This document shows positions 40,624-45,251 of a stretch of DNA of 64,000 nt, piece after piece. The DNA lies in the NCBI RefSeq assembly GCF_022808935.1, contig NZ_JAKZFR010000008.1:124001-188000 (forward strand), written 5' to 3'. The notes beneath the pieces are model-generated. The model made no database searches. It worked only from the letters and a program-made list of their open reading frames with translations, and was not told where the DNA came from. Position 1 is the stretch's first letter; each line of letters opens with the position of its first letter. The position numbers were made by a program, and so were the translations under genes. Origin of the DNA: Geothrix sp. SG200. Its GTDB lineage: Bacteria > Acidobacteriota > Holophagae > Holophagales > Holophagaceae.

Positions 40624-40893
40624 ATGAACCGCTCCCTCTTCTGGACCACCTTCGCCACCGTCTTCCTCGCCGAGGTGGGCGACAAGACGCAGCTCGCGGC
40701 CATGACGGCGACGGTGCGCAGTGGGCAGATCTGGACCGTGTTCCTGGCCGCCAGCGCCGCCCTTGTCTGCGCCACGGCCATCGGCGTGGCCCTGGGTGGC
40801 GTGCTGTTCAAGTACATTCCCGAGGCCGCCATCAGGTGGGTGGCGGGGGCGGCCTTCATCGGGGTGGGCCTGTGGGTGCTGATCAAGGGCTGA
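40624..40893 (+). CDS. Half-size GDT1/UPF0016 membrane protein
   Basis: 89 aa. Three hydrophobic segments and a single copy of the family motif EVGDKTQLA. Full-size bacterial and eukaryotic members carry two such copies; single-copy versions are known to occur as pairs or homodimers. Family members transport Mn2+ or Ca2+. The presence of one motif suggests dimerisation. The DCC gene start overlaps its end. Confidence 0.82.
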   Translation: MNRSLFWTTFATVFLAEVGDKTQLAAMTATVRSGQIWTVFLAASAALVCATAIGVALGGVLFKYIPEAAIRWVAGAAFIGVGLWVLIKG

Positions 40894-41318
40894 GCCCGGG
40901 CCAGAACCCGGGCCAGAACCCGGGCCAGAACCCGGGGCCGGCCCGTGTCTTCTACGACGGTGGCTGCGGCCTCTGCCAGGGGGCGGTGCGCTTCGCGGCC
41001 CGGCGCGACACCTTCGGGCGCCTCCGCTTCGCCCCCCTGGACGGCCCGACCTTCCGGCGGACCGTGCCCGCCGAGGCGCGCCGGGATCTGCCGGACAGCC
41101 TGGTGGTCCTCACGGTCGAGGGCGCGGTGCTGTCCCGCTCGGGAGCCATCCTCCACCTGCTGGGGCGGCTGGGATCGCCTTGGCCCGCGGTGGCCGCCGC
41201 CCTGGCTTGGGTGCCCGTTCCGCTGCGGGACGGGATCTATCGCCTGGCGGCCCGCCTCCGGCGTCGCCGGACTGCCTGTGATCTCGCCCCGGCCGGAGAT
41301 GACCGGTTCGAGCCATAG
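40872..41318 (+). CDS. DCC-family (DUF393) thiol-disulfide oxidoreductase-like protein
   Basis: About 148 aa. The signature FYDGGCGLCQGAVRFAARRD identifies the DCC family, with a CxxC in a thioredoxin-like setting. No ATG precedes the domain; GTG 40872 is the likely start, inside the end of the GDT1 gene, with CTG 40890 as alternative. The N terminus contains a PGQN repeat from three perfect 12-nt repeats. It sits upstream of the bufferin operon. Confidence 0.7.
   Translation: MGADQGLSPGQNPGQNPGQNPGPARVFYDGGCGLCQGAVRFAARRDTFGRLRFAPLDGPTFRRTVPAEARRDLPDSLVVLTVEGAVLSRSGAILHLLGRLGSPWPAVAAALAWVPVPLRDGIYRLAARLRRRRTACDLAPAGDDRFEP
40895..40930 (+). repeat. 12-nt tandem repeat (CCCGGGCCAGAA x3)
   Basis: Three perfect copies at the start of the DCC-family gene, encoding PGQN repeats. 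Slippage here would change only the N-terminal length, in multiples of four residues. Confidence 0.85.
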
Positions 41319-41405
41319 AAATTTTTAAGTGTCACAAAGCCCCCCGGACAGGCACTCCAAAGGCTGACGACAGCACCACAGTCCCAATCCCCCAAAACCG
41401 GGGGA

Positions 41406-41458
41406 GGGACTTCGTCCCACCAGCGGGGCCGCTCGGCCCCAGGCGCGGCCCTGGCCGC
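41406..41458 (+). promoter_or_regulatory. Three-hairpin leader of the bufferin operon
   Basis: Three consecutive perfect hairpins: GGGAC-TTC-GTCCC (41406-41418), GGGGCCG-CT-CGGCCCC (41425-41440) and GCGGCC-CT-GGCCGC (41445-41458). The ribosome binding site AAGGAGG follows at once (41459-41465), 4 nt before the ATG. The arrangement suggests control of translation or mRNA stability. A T/A-rich stretch at 41319-41332 may belong to the promoter. Confidence 0.6.
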
Positions 41459-41469
41459 AAGGAGGATTC

Positions 41470-41796
41470 ATGATCACCAAACTCATCGGGGCGGCCACCC
41501 TGTTCGCAGCGGGCTCCCTGGTCGCCGGCGCGCCGGCCACCCTGGGCGCCGCGTCCGTCGAACCTTTCGGCGCGGACGCCGCCCTCAGCACCGCCGCCGG
41601 TTGCGGCGCCAAGGACGCCAAGGACGCGGGCAAGGCCCCCGCCAAGGATGCGAAGGCCAAGGAGGGCTCCTGCGGCAAGGGCTCCTGCGGCAGCAAGGAC
41701 GCCAAGGCGAAGAAGGGGTCGAAGGACGGCTCCTGCGGCAAGGGCTCCTGCGGCAGCAAGGACCCCAAGAAGGACGCCCCCGCGGACAAGAAGTAG
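41470..41796 (+). CDS. Bufferin-like Cys-rich RiPP precursor peptide
   Basis: 108 aa. A Sec-type signal peptide (residues 1 to about 28) is followed by a Lys/Asp/Gly/Ala-rich region with five cysteines: one in AAGCGAKD and two copies of GSCGKGSCGSKD. These are the type of C-G containing motifs (EGKCG-like) found in bufferins and related MNIO substrates. In such RiPPs the MNIO enzyme converts cysteines to metal-binding thiooxazole groups. The following genes encode exactly that enzyme and its partner. The two motif blocks are encoded by a perfect 36-nt direct repeat (41665-41700 and 41728-41763). Presumed function: copper or other metal sequestration in the periplasm. Confidence 0.78.
   Translation: MITKLIGAATLFAAGSLVAGAPATLGAASVEPFGADAALSTAAGCGAKDAKDAGKAPAKDAKAKEGSCGKGSCGSKDAKAKKGSKDGSCGKGSCGSKDPKKDAPADKK
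41665..41763 (+). repeat. 36-nt direct repeat in the bufferin-like precursor
   Basis: Two perfect copies of 36 nt (41665-41700 and 41728-41763), 63 nt apart start to start. Each encodes GSCGKGSCGSKD. Identity including third codon positions implies a recent duplication or conversion. Confidence 0.9.
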
Positions 41797-41807
41797 CGGG
41801 GCGACGC

Positions 41808-42686
41808 GTGGCTCAGGGCAGATCTCCCGGATCCTTCCAGGGCGTGGGCCTGGGACTCCGGCGCGCCCACCTCGAGGAGGTGGCGGGCCAGGAGGGCCAC
41901 GGCGTCCCCTTCTGGGAGACCTGCCCGGAGAACCTGATCGGGGATGGCGGCCGCCACCACCGGCTGGCTTCCGCCATCCTCGACCGGGATCCGGTCCTCA
42001 CCCACGGCCTGGCCATCTCTCTCGGCGGCTTCGATCCCTGGGATGGGGACTACCTGCGGGAACTGGACCGCTTCCTGGTCCGCACGGGGACGCCCTGGCA
42101 CTCCGAGCACCTCTGTTTCACGGGCGTGGACGGCAGCTGCCTCCACGAGCTGCTGCCCCTGCCCTTCACCCGCGAGGCGGCCCGGCACGCCATCGCCCGG
42201 GCCAGGGACCTCCAGGGCCGGCTGTCCGTTCCGCTCCTGCTGGAGAACATCACCTACTACGCCCACCTTGGCGAGCCCGAGATGGATGAGGCGGCGTTCA
42301 TCGCGGAGGTGCTTGAGGGCGCGGACGTGGGCTGGCTGCTGGACGTGAACAATGTCTACGTGAACGCCCTCAACTTCGGCTTCGATCCCAAGGCCTGGCT
42401 GGCCCGCATGCCCCTGGACCGCGTCGCCCAGATCCACATCGCCGGCCACAGGAAGTTCGGATCCATCACCGTGGACACCCACGGGGCGGACGTGATCGAC
42501 CCCGTCATCGAGCTCATGCAGTGGACCCTCGCCCGCCTGGGGCGGCCCGTCCCGGTGCTGCTGGAGCGGGACAACCACATCCCGGACTTCGGGGACCTCC
42601 TGGCGGAGCGGGCCCGGATTCAGGTCGCCTACGATGCGGCGCTGGCTCCAACGGAGACCGCGCCGGCGGAGGCCGTCCATGCCTGA
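41808..42686 (+). CDS. MNIO (DUF692) RiPP-modifying enzyme, BufB-like
   Basis: 292 aa from GTG 41808, 11 nt after the precursor. DUF692 TIM-barrel iron oxidase: GVGLGLRRAHLEEV, FWETCPENLIG, HGLAISLG, WHSEHLCF, LLLENITYYA, LLDVNNVYVNALNFGFD, HIAGHRK, DTHGADVIDPV and LLERDNHIPDF. These include the His, Asp, Asn and Glu ligands of the multinuclear iron site. MNIOs modify cysteine residues of RiPP precursors. GTG 41808 gives the family N terminus. Overlaps the next gene by 8 nt. Confidence 0.9.
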   Translation: MAQGRSPGSFQGVGLGLRRAHLEEVAGQEGHGVPFWETCPENLIGDGGRHHRLASAILDRDPVLTHGLAISLGGFDPWDGDYLRELDRFLVRTGTPWHSEHLCFTGVDGSCLHELLPLPFTREAARHAIARARDLQGRLSVPLLLENITYYAHLGEPEMDEAAFIAEVLEGADVGWLLDVNNVYVNALNFGFDPKAWLARMPLDRVAQIHIAGHRKFGSITVDTHGADVIDPVIELMQWTLARLGRPVPVLLERDNHIPDFGDLLAERARIQVAYDAALAPTETAPAEAVHA

Positions 42687-43449
42687 GTCCCCTACCTTCC
42701 GTCTCCAGCGGGCCATGGCTTCCCTGATTCTGGACGAGGAGCCGGAAGACTTCGGCGCGCCGGCGGAACGCCTGGGGCTCCCGGCGGCGGACCAGCAGGC
42801 CTTCCGCGAGCAGCCCGAGGCCATGGACCTGTACCGGGAGCTGGCCCGCCTGAGCCTCACGGAACCCCTGGACACCACCTTCCCCGTGCTGAAGGCCCTG
42901 CTCGAGGGAGCGGAGGTCTGGGCGTCGTGCGTGCAGGCCTTCCTGTCGGCCCGGGTGGTGCGGAGCACCCACTACCGCGACATCGCCCCCAGCTTCCTGG
43001 GCTGGCTCGTGGATACGGGCTGGGGCCAGGACCGCTGGCCCTTCCTGGCGGAGCTGGCCCACGCGGAGCTCCTGGAGGTGCTGGTGGCCCGCTTCCCGGA
43101 GGCCGACCCGCGCCAGGATCTCCATGATGACCCGAGGCCCGGGGATACTGTGTGGCTTGACCCCGGAACCCAGGTGGTGGCCTACGCCCACGCCGTGCAT
43201 CGGGCCACCGAGGCGGCTCCCGTGCCCGAGGCGCGGCCCACCCACCTCCTGGCGTTCCGGGACGCGGAAGGGGAGGCCCGCGTCATGGAGCTCACGGCGG
43301 CCACCGCCGCCTTGCTTCTCCAAGCCCGCACGCGCCCCCTGGCCGAATCCGCGGCGGCCCTGGGCTTCGCCGATCCGGCCCCGGCGCTCGACCTCCTCCG
43401 GGACCTGCGCCGGCAGGGCGCCGTCCTGGGTTTCCGCGCGCCCCACTGA
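42679..43449 (+). CDS. DUF2063 RiPP partner protein, BufC-like
   Basis: 256 aa. An N-terminal DUF2063 domain, with VWASCVQAFLSARVVRSTHYRDIAPSFLGWLV as its recognisable centre, and a C-terminal region with a winged-helix-like arrangement. In MNIO pathways this protein binds the precursor and delivers it to the DUF692 enzyme. It overlaps the DUF692 gene by 8 nt, the usual coupled arrangement. Confidence 0.82.
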   Translation: MPESPTFRLQRAMASLILDEEPEDFGAPAERLGLPAADQQAFREQPEAMDLYRELARLSLTEPLDTTFPVLKALLEGAEVWASCVQAFLSARVVRSTHYRDIAPSFLGWLVDTGWGQDRWPFLAELAHAELLEVLVARFPEADPRQDLHDDPRPGDTVWLDPGTQVVAYAHAVHRATEAAPVPEARPTHLLAFRDAEGEARVMELTAATAALLLQARTRPLAESAAALGFADPAPALDLLRDLRRQGAVLGFRAPH

Positions 43450-43489
43450 TTCTTGTCCCCCCTGTCATCCCCCAGCCATCGAGGTCCCC

Positions 43490-44071
43490 ATGCGACTCCG
43501 CGCCTTCGCGCCCCTGCTTCTGCTGACCCTTTCCCTCACGGCCCAGGGCCGGACTTTCCGGGTGGACACCACGCACACGGTGCTGGGCTTCAAGGCGTCC
43601 ACCCTGCTCTTCGACGTGCCGGGCCGCTTCACGCGCTACAAGGCCGACATCCAGGGCGATCCGGCCACGCTGGAGGGCGCGAAGGTCCGCCTGGACATCG
43701 ACGCCCGCTCCGTGGACACCGCCAACGGCACGCGTGACGAGCACCTGCGCTCACCGGATTTCTTCGACGTGGCGAAGCACCCCGCCATCACCTTCGTGTC
43801 GCGGGAGGTGAAGCGGGACGGGGACAAGGTGGTGGTGCGCGGCACGCTCTCGATGCATGGGGTGAGCCGGGAGCTGAGCCTGCCCTTCACGCCCGCGGAG
43901 GGCACGAACGGGGCCGGGGCCCACACATGGGCGTACCGGGCCACGGTGCCGCTGGATCGCCTCGACTACGGCCTGGGAGCCGACAGCGTGGCCGCCAAGA
44001 TCAGCCTGAAGCGGCAGGTGGAGCTGGACCTGATGCTGGTGGGCTTCTTCGACCCGCCGGGAAAGAAGTAG
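43490..44071 (+). CDS. YceI-family periplasmic protein
   Basis: 193 aa. Signal peptide MRLRAFAPLLLLTLSLTAQG, then the YceI lipocalin-like barrel: FRVDTTHTVLGFKAS, RSVDTANGTRDEHLRSPDFFDV, KHPAITFVS and TLSMHGVSRELSLPFT. The family binds isoprenoids or other hydrophobic compounds. GAGG lies 5 nt before the ATG, 40 nt after the DUF2063 gene, so it may belong to the same operon. The last gene before a convergent phosphoesterase gene. Confidence 0.9.
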   Translation: MRLRAFAPLLLLTLSLTAQGRTFRVDTTHTVLGFKASTLLFDVPGRFTRYKADIQGDPATLEGAKVRLDIDARSVDTANGTRDEHLRSPDFFDVAKHPAITFVSREVKRDGDKVVVRGTLSMHGVSRELSLPFTPAEGTNGAGAHTWAYRATVPLDRLDYGLGADSVAAKISLKRQVELDLMLVGFFDPPGKK

Positions 44072-44072
44072 A

Positions 44073-45251
44073 TCAGGCCCGCCTCAGCGTGAAGATCGCG
44101 ATCTCCGGCGGGGCGGCGATGCGCAGCGGGAGGCCCACCACGCCCAGGCCGCGGCTCACGTAGAGCACATCCTCGCCCTGGCGGTAGAAGCCCTGGGTGC
44201 GGGGGCCGATGAGGTGGGCGCTGCTGACGCCGGGGATGGGATTGATCTGGCCGCCATGGGTGTGCCCGGACAAGGTCAAGCGGGCGCCCGCGGTCAGGGC
44301 CTCCTCCCATTCGCTGGGGCGGTGGTTCAGGCAGAGGCGGAAGGCGTCGACGGGCACGTCGCGGGTGGCCTCCGCGGGCCGGGGACCGGGCCCGAAGACC
44401 ATGCGCCGGAACCGGCCGTTCCGGGCCATCGGGTCCTGGAGGCCCATCACCGCCAGGGTGCTGCCATTCCGGCGGACCAGGGCGGAGGCATTCTCCACGC
44501 AGCGGATGCCGGCGGCCTCCAGGTCCCGCCAGATGGGCCGGGGATCATCGAAGTAGTCGTGGTTGCCGAGCACGGCGAAGGTTCCGAAGGCCGCCGGGAA
44601 GCCCGCGAAGGCGTCGACCACCGGCCCCAGCTCGTCGGGCCGGCTGTCCACCAGGTCGCCGGTGATGAGGAGCAGGTCCGGCCGCTCCCGGGCCGTGAGG
44701 TCCCGCCACCGGCGCACCAGCTCCGGGCCCACCAGGGGGCCGGAATGCAGGTCGCTGAGCTGGGCGAGGCGGAGACCCTCGAGCCCCGGCGGGAGGTTCG
44801 TGAAGGCCAGCTCGTGGCGGGTGATGACCGGATCGCCATAGGCCTCCCGCGCGCCCCGGGCGCCGAAGGCCACCGCGGCTCCCGTGCTCGCCAGGGCAGC
44901 GGTCCGAAGGAAGGCGCGCCGTCCGGGGTCCAGGGCCTCGCCCGGGGGCTCGGGCTTGTGGCGGCTCCACAGGTGCCAGAGGCCTTCGGCCGCCATGCCA
45001 GCCAGCAGGTGGAGGACCGTGAAGGCCTGGAAGTAGAACCCCCCTCGGGCCATGCCCCGCAGGAGGGGCAGGGCGCCATGGCCGCCCAGGCCGATGATGC
45101 GGAGCCCGGCGAAGAGGATCAGGGGGATGTGGATGAGCCCCAGGATCCAGGGCAGCGCCCGATGGTACCGGCTCGGCAGTTCCAGTCGCAGCAGGCGCAG
45201 GTGCAGCCACTGGACGAGGAAGATGAGGACGAGGCCGGTGAGGAAGAGCAT
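44073..45251 (-). CDS. Membrane-anchored metallophosphoesterase
   Basis: 392 aa. Three or four N-terminal hydrophobic segments (to about residue 95) are followed by a calcineurin-like phosphoesterase domain: QLSDLHSG, LLITGDLVD, VLGNHDYFDD, and LSGHTHGGQ. The RRAFLRTAALASTG stretch around residue 110 looks like a twin-arginine signal in an internal position. Family members include YaeI-type phosphodiesterases acting on lipids or nucleotides. The ends are convergent with yceI, 1 nt apart. Confidence 0.87.
   Translation of the reverse strand: MLFLTGLVLIFLVQWLHLRLLRLELPSRYHRALPWILGLIHIPLILFAGLRIIGLGGHGALPLLRGMARGGFYFQAFTVLHLLAGMAAEGLWHLWSRHKPEPPGEALDPGRRAFLRTAALASTGAAVAFGARGAREAYGDPVITRHELAFTNLPPGLEGLRLAQLSDLHSGPLVGPELVRRWRDLTARERPDLLLITGDLVDSRPDELGPVVDAFAGFPAAFGTFAVLGNHDYFDDPRPIWRDLEAAGIRCVENASALVRRNGSTLAVMGLQDPMARNGRFRRMVFGPGPRPAEATRDVPVDAFRLCLNHRPSEWEEALTAGARLTLSGHTHGGQINPIPGVSSAHLIGPRTQGFYRQGEDVLYVSRGLGVVGLPLRIAAPPEIAIFTLRRA

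Follow-up and report, generated by a model that had tools for sequence, protein, structure and literature searches.

The window, a stretch of 64,000 nucleotides from Geothrix sp. SG200 (contig NZ_JAKZFR010000008.1, positions 124,001 to 188,000), contains an operon for a ribosomally synthesized and post-translationally modified peptide (RiPP), in which a cysteine-rich precursor gene is followed by the genes of a multinuclear non-haem iron-dependent oxidase (MNIO) and its DUF2063-type partner. By analogy to characterized systems, it is quite probable that this operon works like the captophorin pathways for oxazolin, fontiphorin and gonophorin, and that its product is a thiooxazole peptide for copper. 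It is a lineage-specific variant of this recently described peptide family and not a new kind of system. The three genes are:

41470-41796, plus strand: RiPP precursor, 108 amino acids, ATG start; signal-like N-terminus, then AGCGAKD, EGSCGKGSCGSKD and DGSCGKGSCGSKD
41808-42686, plus strand: MNIO enzyme (DUF692, MbnB_TglH_ChrH), GTG start; PF05114, E=1.2e-85
42679-43449, plus strand: partner (PME-type 1 / HvfC-like; DUF2063 plus a C-terminal domain of the RiPP recognition element (RRE) type); PF09836, E=2e-12, and PF22106, E=8e-11

The stop codon of the precursor gene lies 11 bases before the start of the MNIO gene, which itself overlaps the partner gene by 8 bases. Three features of an MNIO-PME1 RiPP cluster (the captophorin class as understood in PMC13097082), namely a PF05114 enzyme, a DUF2063/RRE partner and an adjoining Cys-rich precursor, are present. 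A three-gene operon with a five-cysteine GSCGKGSCG precursor had been proposed by an earlier, sequence-only reading of this DNA, and it is confirmed by the coordinates, the Pfam matches and the conservation described below. The same order of precursor, MNIO and DUF2063/RRE partner is found in the operons for oxazolin (HvfABC, Haemophilus influenzae), fontiphorin (FonABC) and gonophorin (NgoABC), the EGKCG-type captophorins. The predicted fold of the partner matches 3DEE (NGO1945) and TglI (8HI7), of which 3DEE was not found for the partner by sequence search alone.

SG200 is a soil and sediment bacterium, and Geothrix and its relatives are known for iron reduction. Among 100 genomes, including that of SG200, precursor homologues were detected in 36 and MNIO homologues in 43; the SG200 genome itself encodes one MNIO. 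The nearest named relatives by MNIO are Geothrix terrae and G. paludis with 94% and 92% identity in the best segment, respectively. For the gene neighborhood, 41 Holophagaceae loci with a related MNIO were examined (L062-L101 and the locus of the window). A related precursor gene is located upstream of the MNIO gene in all 41, directly in 40 of them and ahead of an intervening radical S-adenosylmethionine (SAM) gene in L096. The partner gene follows in 40 loci, the exception being L101, which is cut at a contig end. The sequence-only reading would have been given up if the precursor were absent from related operons, which did not occur. Comparison of the precursor gene with its two closest relatives gave synonymous differences (pS) of 0.124 and 0.149 and non-synonymous differences (pN) of 0.021 and 0.029. 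The changes are thus mostly synonymous, which is the expectation for a protein under purifying selection and speaks for a real gene.

The constant pairing of precursor and MNIO in 41 of 41 loci also bears on a different explanation, in which the MNIO has another target and the peptide, rich in Lys, Asp and Cys, is secreted without modification and binds metal as it is. The number of cysteines (4 to 12 per Holophagaceae precursor) and their contexts vary widely, as would suit such a protein, but no other precursor-like open reading frame is needed as an explanation, and this alternative is considered very improbable.

The exceptional locus L096 belongs to a second MNIO cluster of Geothrix fermentans (G007 contig 1, L096:4287-6552), which consists of a GSCGAGSCGG precursor, a radical SAM/SPASM gene (PF04055, 5.5e-16; PF13186, 4e-5), an MNIO gene, a partner gene and a YceI gene. 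The radical SAM/SPASM gene was found in one of 60 genomes at E<=1e-40.

The N-terminus of the precursor, MITKLIGAATLFAAGSLVAGAPATLGA, resembles a Sec signal peptide by eye. The precursor contains five cysteines, each followed by glycine, and the sequence GSCGKGSCG twice. These repeats are more than chance: when the 81 residues that follow residue 27 were shuffled 200,000 times, four GSCG never arose and two or more arose in 16 cases. The sequence-only reading had regarded the spacing of the GSCG repeats as different from the classical EGKCG motif. This was wrong, as the cysteines are spaced by five residues both in GSCGKGSCG and in EGKCGEGKCG when counted, and it is the residues that differ: serine replaces lysine at position 3, and lysine replaces glutamate at position 1 of the second repeat. 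KCG does not occur at any of the five cysteines, and the repeated EGKCG motif is therefore missing from the precursor.

Related cores are diverse. The 249 cysteines of 44 Holophagaceae precursors (L095 and L132 left out) are preceded by serine in 143 cases, glycine in 36, lysine in 25, arginine in 14, threonine and aspartate in 10 each and other residues in 11, and they are followed by glycine in 229 and alanine in 11 cases. The pair [STA]CG[KA]G[STG]CG is present in 29 of the 44. Further core types are GGCGGGGGCG (seven precursors), HKCG/DGKCG with a C-terminal SCGKGSCG, and RRC/PRC in two (L091 and L099). The latter two precursors (L091:6935-7213 and L099:6571-6828) combine the family leader with an Arg-rich core of GRRCAGVPRCG repeats and nine cysteines, and their MNIOs carry leucine in place of Arg19.

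Outside the Holophagaceae, GSCG is found twice in NgoA (L185; QGSCG/EGSCG) beside EGKCG repeats, as EGSCG in the precursor of a Pseudomonas aeruginosa plasmid (L184), and as four EGSCG in the Myxococcota locus L151. Neither 'Acidobact...' nor 'GSCG'/'GSC' occurs in the main texts of PMC12452194 and PMC13097082, whose supplementary tables may list such motifs. A literature search for SCG-type repeat motifs gave no title on MNIO peptides among the matches listed.

The best match of the MNIO in the Protein Data Bank is 3BWW (sequence 4.8e-50; fold 1.7e-22, TMt 0.87), which is described as closely related to HvfB in PMC13419390. An MNIO tree was calculated from 95 rows (47 Holophagaceae, 5 Myxococcota, 2 EGKCG/EGSCG, 35 Cys-Lys and 6 DUF2282 rows) and rooted at the midpoint. 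Rows left out are L101 (short), L161 and L168 (duplicates), all three removed ahead of the alignment, and L107 and L108, removed ahead of the tree. The Cys-Lys labels were taken from the precursors where these were seen, and otherwise from the position among such rows. One branch with a support of 100/100 separates the Holophagaceae, the Myxococcota, the Neisseria gonorrhoeae row and the P. aeruginosa plasmid row from the Cys-Lys and DUF2282 rows, with long branches flagged by the program. Judged from this split and the match to 3BWW, the MNIO lies on the HvfB branch: it groups with the HvfB/oxazolin-type (captophorin) and Myxococcota enzymes, apart from those of the Buf1 and Buf2 type. Nine residues that are likely metal-site or catalytic positions, chosen from family knowledge and papers, are invariant in all 47 Holophagaceae rows.

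The tree bears on the classification as a bufferin, which the sequence-only reading had suggested. The bufferins Buf1 (DUF2282) and Buf2 (6 or 12 Cys) have the enzyme family, the type of partner, the signal-bearing precursor and the proposed copper role in common with the Geothrix operon, and with 250.1 bits the NCBIfam model BufB scores the MNIO close to HvfB (259.5 bits). However, no Pfam family, DUF2282 included, matches the precursor at E<=1, its five cysteines, all followed by glycine, differ from the 6 or 12 cysteines and the Cys-Lys motifs of Buf2, and the MNIO stands apart from the 35 Cys-Lys and 6 DUF2282 rows (100/100, long branches flagged). A bufferin in the strict sense was thus rejected on both precursor type and enzyme branch, and we give a true Buf1 or Buf2 hardly any chance. 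As the MNIO-PME1 features are present while the EGKCG motif, scores above the HvfA cut-offs, DUF2282 and the Buf2 patterns are missing, the operon is read as a captophorin-like pathway with a Ser-Cys-Gly variant of the core.

Some other loci of the comparison have unusual precursors. In L105 (L105:3946-5823) and L106, the gene directly upstream of the MNIO gene encodes a ferritin-like protein (PF12902, 2.4e-21 in L105) that ends in a Buf2-like tail with Cys-Lys and could be a fusion substrate. In L179, which is from Acidobacteriota, the precursor encoded upstream of the MNIO gene contains a long series of ASCKGEK-type repeats.

With the captophorins of the Buf_EGKCG/oxazolin family, the Geothrix system has in common the tree half of the MNIO, the five-residue register with glycine after cysteine and the invariant metal-site residues. 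It differs from them by serine (glycine, lysine or arginine in relatives) instead of lysine before cysteine, by the lysine at the start of the second repeat, by Asn256 of the MNIO where HvfB-type enzymes have phenylalanine, by the lack of DoxX in the operon and by scores under the cut-offs of the HvfA models. The EGSCG-repeat systems of Myxococcota (e.g., L151) are similar in the serine before cysteine, in the asparagine or glutamine that all five rows have as selectivity residue, and in their half of the tree. Their precursors, however, are short with a lipobox-like AGC, and L151 passes NF050137 (21.5 bits, cut-off 19.5), which the precursor of the window does not. No homology to the partner of the window was detected in the Myxococcota loci by tblastn at E<=1e-3. 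The five Myxococcota loci L149-L153 carry short EGSCG-type precursors, several of which are lipoprotein-like. Finally, methanobactin (MbnABC) and TglHI systems have the MNIO fold and a related partner fold in common with the operon, but according to the literature they belong to another branch and lead to other products, and MbnB also has another partner.

In fontiphorin biosynthesis, the choice of the core has been tied to the residues R15, R16 and F250 of FonB (PMC13097082). Judged from an alignment through 3BWW and L185, these would correspond to R18, R19 and N256 of the Geothrix MNIO. All 47 Holophagaceae rows have R18, and 42 have R19. Asparagine occupies position 256 in 37 of these rows, histidine in 6, serine in 2 and glutamine and threonine in one each; none has phenylalanine there, while L184, L185 and 3BWW do. 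The Myxococcota rows have three Asn and two Gln, the Cys-Lys rows 22 Asp, 10 Ala and one each of Gly, Glu and Gln, and the six DUF2282 rows two Asn and one each of Thr, Ala, Ser and Asp. These distributions, together with a recount of the cores by pattern beside the enzyme residues (L083 left out), give a match between selectivity residue and core type that is suggestive but not strict. Asn256 was rejected as a marker of Ser-Cys cores, as asparagine also accompanies HKCG cores (L094, L141, L145) and two of the six DUF2282-associated MNIOs, and the Phe-bearing L184 and L185 also go with GSCG-containing precursors. Likewise, loss of Arg19 does not mark Arg-rich cores, since leucine is present at both RRC/PRC loci but Arg19 is also absent in L090, L100, L139 and 5 of 5 Myxococcota rows. 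The Holophagaceae form a natural series in which the substrate rules of FonB can be followed without mutants: cysteine is preceded by Ser, Gly, Lys or Arg, repeats can start with Lys, and the selectivity residue is Asn, His, Ser or Gln.

By analogy to the characterized relatives, from which signal cleavage, thiooxazole chemistry, the choice among the five cysteines, export and the link to copper are taken, the pathway may be pictured as follows. The precursor would be made with a Sec-type signal sequence and presented to the MNIO by the RRE-type domain of the partner. With its diiron site and O2, the MNIO would convert the cysteines of the [E/D]GSCG and KGSCG repeats into 5-thiooxazoles, each conversion removing 4 Da. 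After export, the peptide would bind Cu(I) outside the cytoplasm and lower copper stress. The Holophagaceae pathway would use its own Ser-Cys-Gly core instead of Lys-Cys-Gly, with mostly Asn instead of Phe as selectivity residue. The SG200 genome has three matches of the haem-copper oxidase type and two of the cytochrome bd type, and these terminal oxidase families make the use of O2 plausible; the haem-copper oxidase-type family also contains nitric oxide reductases. Regarding the chemistry, gonophorin, the product of NgoA, carries 5-thiooxazoles, and FonBC tolerates Ala, Arg or Thr as the third residue but requires a small residue after cysteine (PMC13097082). Read this way, the operon extends the thiooxazole-type metallophore clusters, so far mostly from Pseudomonadota, to Geothrix and its relatives.

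Several results weigh against a captophorin-like copper pathway. The MNIO remains under the NCBIfam cut-offs of both HvfB and BufB, and the partner matches the HvfC model NF050145 at 9.1e-30, which is below its cut-off. A search of the precursor against the MNIO substrate families, which the sequence-only reading had recommended, did not reach the curated cut-offs of the NCBIfam HvfA models: NF050188 gave 19.7 bits with a cut-off of 95, and NF050137 was absent from the matches at E<=1. NgoA, taken as a control, is also under the cut-off of NF050188 (48.3 bits), yet passes NF050137 (43.3 against 19.5). The current family models therefore miss the Geothrix precursor. No DoxX match was found among the operon genes named, and the genome's single match to DoxX is on another contig. 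Arginine at position 1 is not processed by FonBC, and the exchange E6A impairs processing (PMC13097082). The second repeat here starts with lysine (KGSCG) while the gating residues R18 and R19 are both kept, so that in each pair the second cysteine may be a poor substrate or be modified differently. Furthermore, the authors of a study on such a cluster in Microbulbifer were reluctant to give it a role in copper protection (PMC12538549).

The last point leads to an alternative with the same enzyme chemistry, in which the peptide handles a soft metal other than copper, buffers redox or oxidative stress in a bacterium that reduces iron, or has a function at the cell surface. None of the named genes next to the operon is a copper gene, and YceI accompanies the operon in 21 of 41 loci. 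In Microbulbifer, protection against copper was not robust (PMC12538549), and responses to other metals have been suggested for some clusters (PMC12452194). On the other hand, the characterized thiooxazole peptides described in the available literature bind copper, and bufferins aid growth under copper stress (PMC12452194). A job other than copper protection is therefore rather unlikely, while the thiooxazole peptide for copper is preferred.

The region ahead of the precursor gene was analyzed for regulatory elements. The following features could be assigned:

41330-41355, plus strand: element TGTCACA-n15-GCAC, perhaps a promoter (uncertain); conserved as a footprint when the upstream regions are aligned
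41425-41440, plus strand: leader hairpin 1, GGGGCCG-CT-CGGCCCC; alignment footprint and pairing counts, 29 loci
41445-41458, plus strand: leader hairpin 2, GCGGC-CCTG-GCCGC; pairing counts, 29 loci
41459-41465, plus strand: ribosome-binding site AAGGAGG of the precursor gene; direct reading, with a GGAGG-like site aligned in relatives

The pattern TGTCACAN{14,17}GCAC occurs once in the SG200 genome, upstream of the precursor gene, and its reversed control also occurs once, elsewhere. As this control is as frequent as the TGTCACA-type pattern, no regulon is shown. A sigma-70-like site was not found in 41200-44200.

The two hairpins are GC-rich and conserved over the 29 loci; L089 was omitted from the leader alignment A2. 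In the pairing counts, 94.8% of the cells of helix 1 are paired with two pairs changed on both sides, and 93.8% of those of helix 2 with one pair changed on both sides and four of five pairs invariant. For both helices, 94.4% of the cells are paired compared to 93.4% in shuffles, of which 11 of 500 were as high, and 45-54% when the helices are slid. Changes on both sides were observed in three pairs (13 of 500 shuffles), and changes on one side lead mostly to G-U. The covariation of the leader is weak. An RNA leader ahead of the precursor gene appears plausible from the conserved pairing; alternatively, the conserved hairpin region may act as a DNA site.

The leader model R1 gave 23 matches below 1e-10 in 60 genomes, nearly all of them training rows. 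Clear matches beyond these are a second locus of G004 (70.6 bits) and the second locus of G. fermentans (33.6 bits). In older loci the matches are weak (13-24 bits) and end at the precursor start, and others are located elsewhere (L146, L092, L093). Since the model contains the ribosome-binding site and the ATG, gene starts score easily; the next match in the SG200 genome after that of the precursor reaches 24.1 bits. In Rfam, the leader gave nothing near a gathering score.

A joint reading would combine these observations. According to it, the MNIOs and cores of the Holophagaceae diversified together (SCG, GCG, HKCG and RRC/PRC cores; Asn, His, Ser, Gln or Thr for Phe), the serine hydroxymethyl group beside the thiooxazole alters the metal preference or is itself modified to a type of product not yet described, and the two-hairpin leader RNA controls expression. 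As a whole, this reading is speculative and seems improbable.

Finally, the genes adjoining the operon were compared. A GDT1-type and a DCC-type gene are located upstream of the precursor gene in the window, and a YceI gene follows 40 bases after the end of the partner gene:

40890-41318, plus strand: DCC thiol-disulfide oxidoreductase-like gene, neighbour, putative start; PF04134, E=5.3e-20
43490-44071, plus strand: YceI-family secreted protein, possible accessory; PF04264, E=6.6e-36

Both genes had been put forward as possible accessories. The DCC gene is present in 16 of the 19 loci with a conserved chromosomal block (RNase D-GDT1-metallophosphatase) and in none of the 22 others, a count that covers only what the contigs hold, as some of these 22 end near the operon. 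It was rejected as an accessory and is regarded as a neighbour within the block. YceI is found in 18 of the 19 block loci and in three of the 22 others (L082, L090, L096). A role as a core gene is unsupported by its presence in 21 of all 41 loci, whereas a weak link as an accessory stands, with three loci keeping YceI outside the block. Between the GDT1 and DCC genes, three head-to-tail GGGCCAGAACCC-like 12-mers are located at 40897-40936 of the window.

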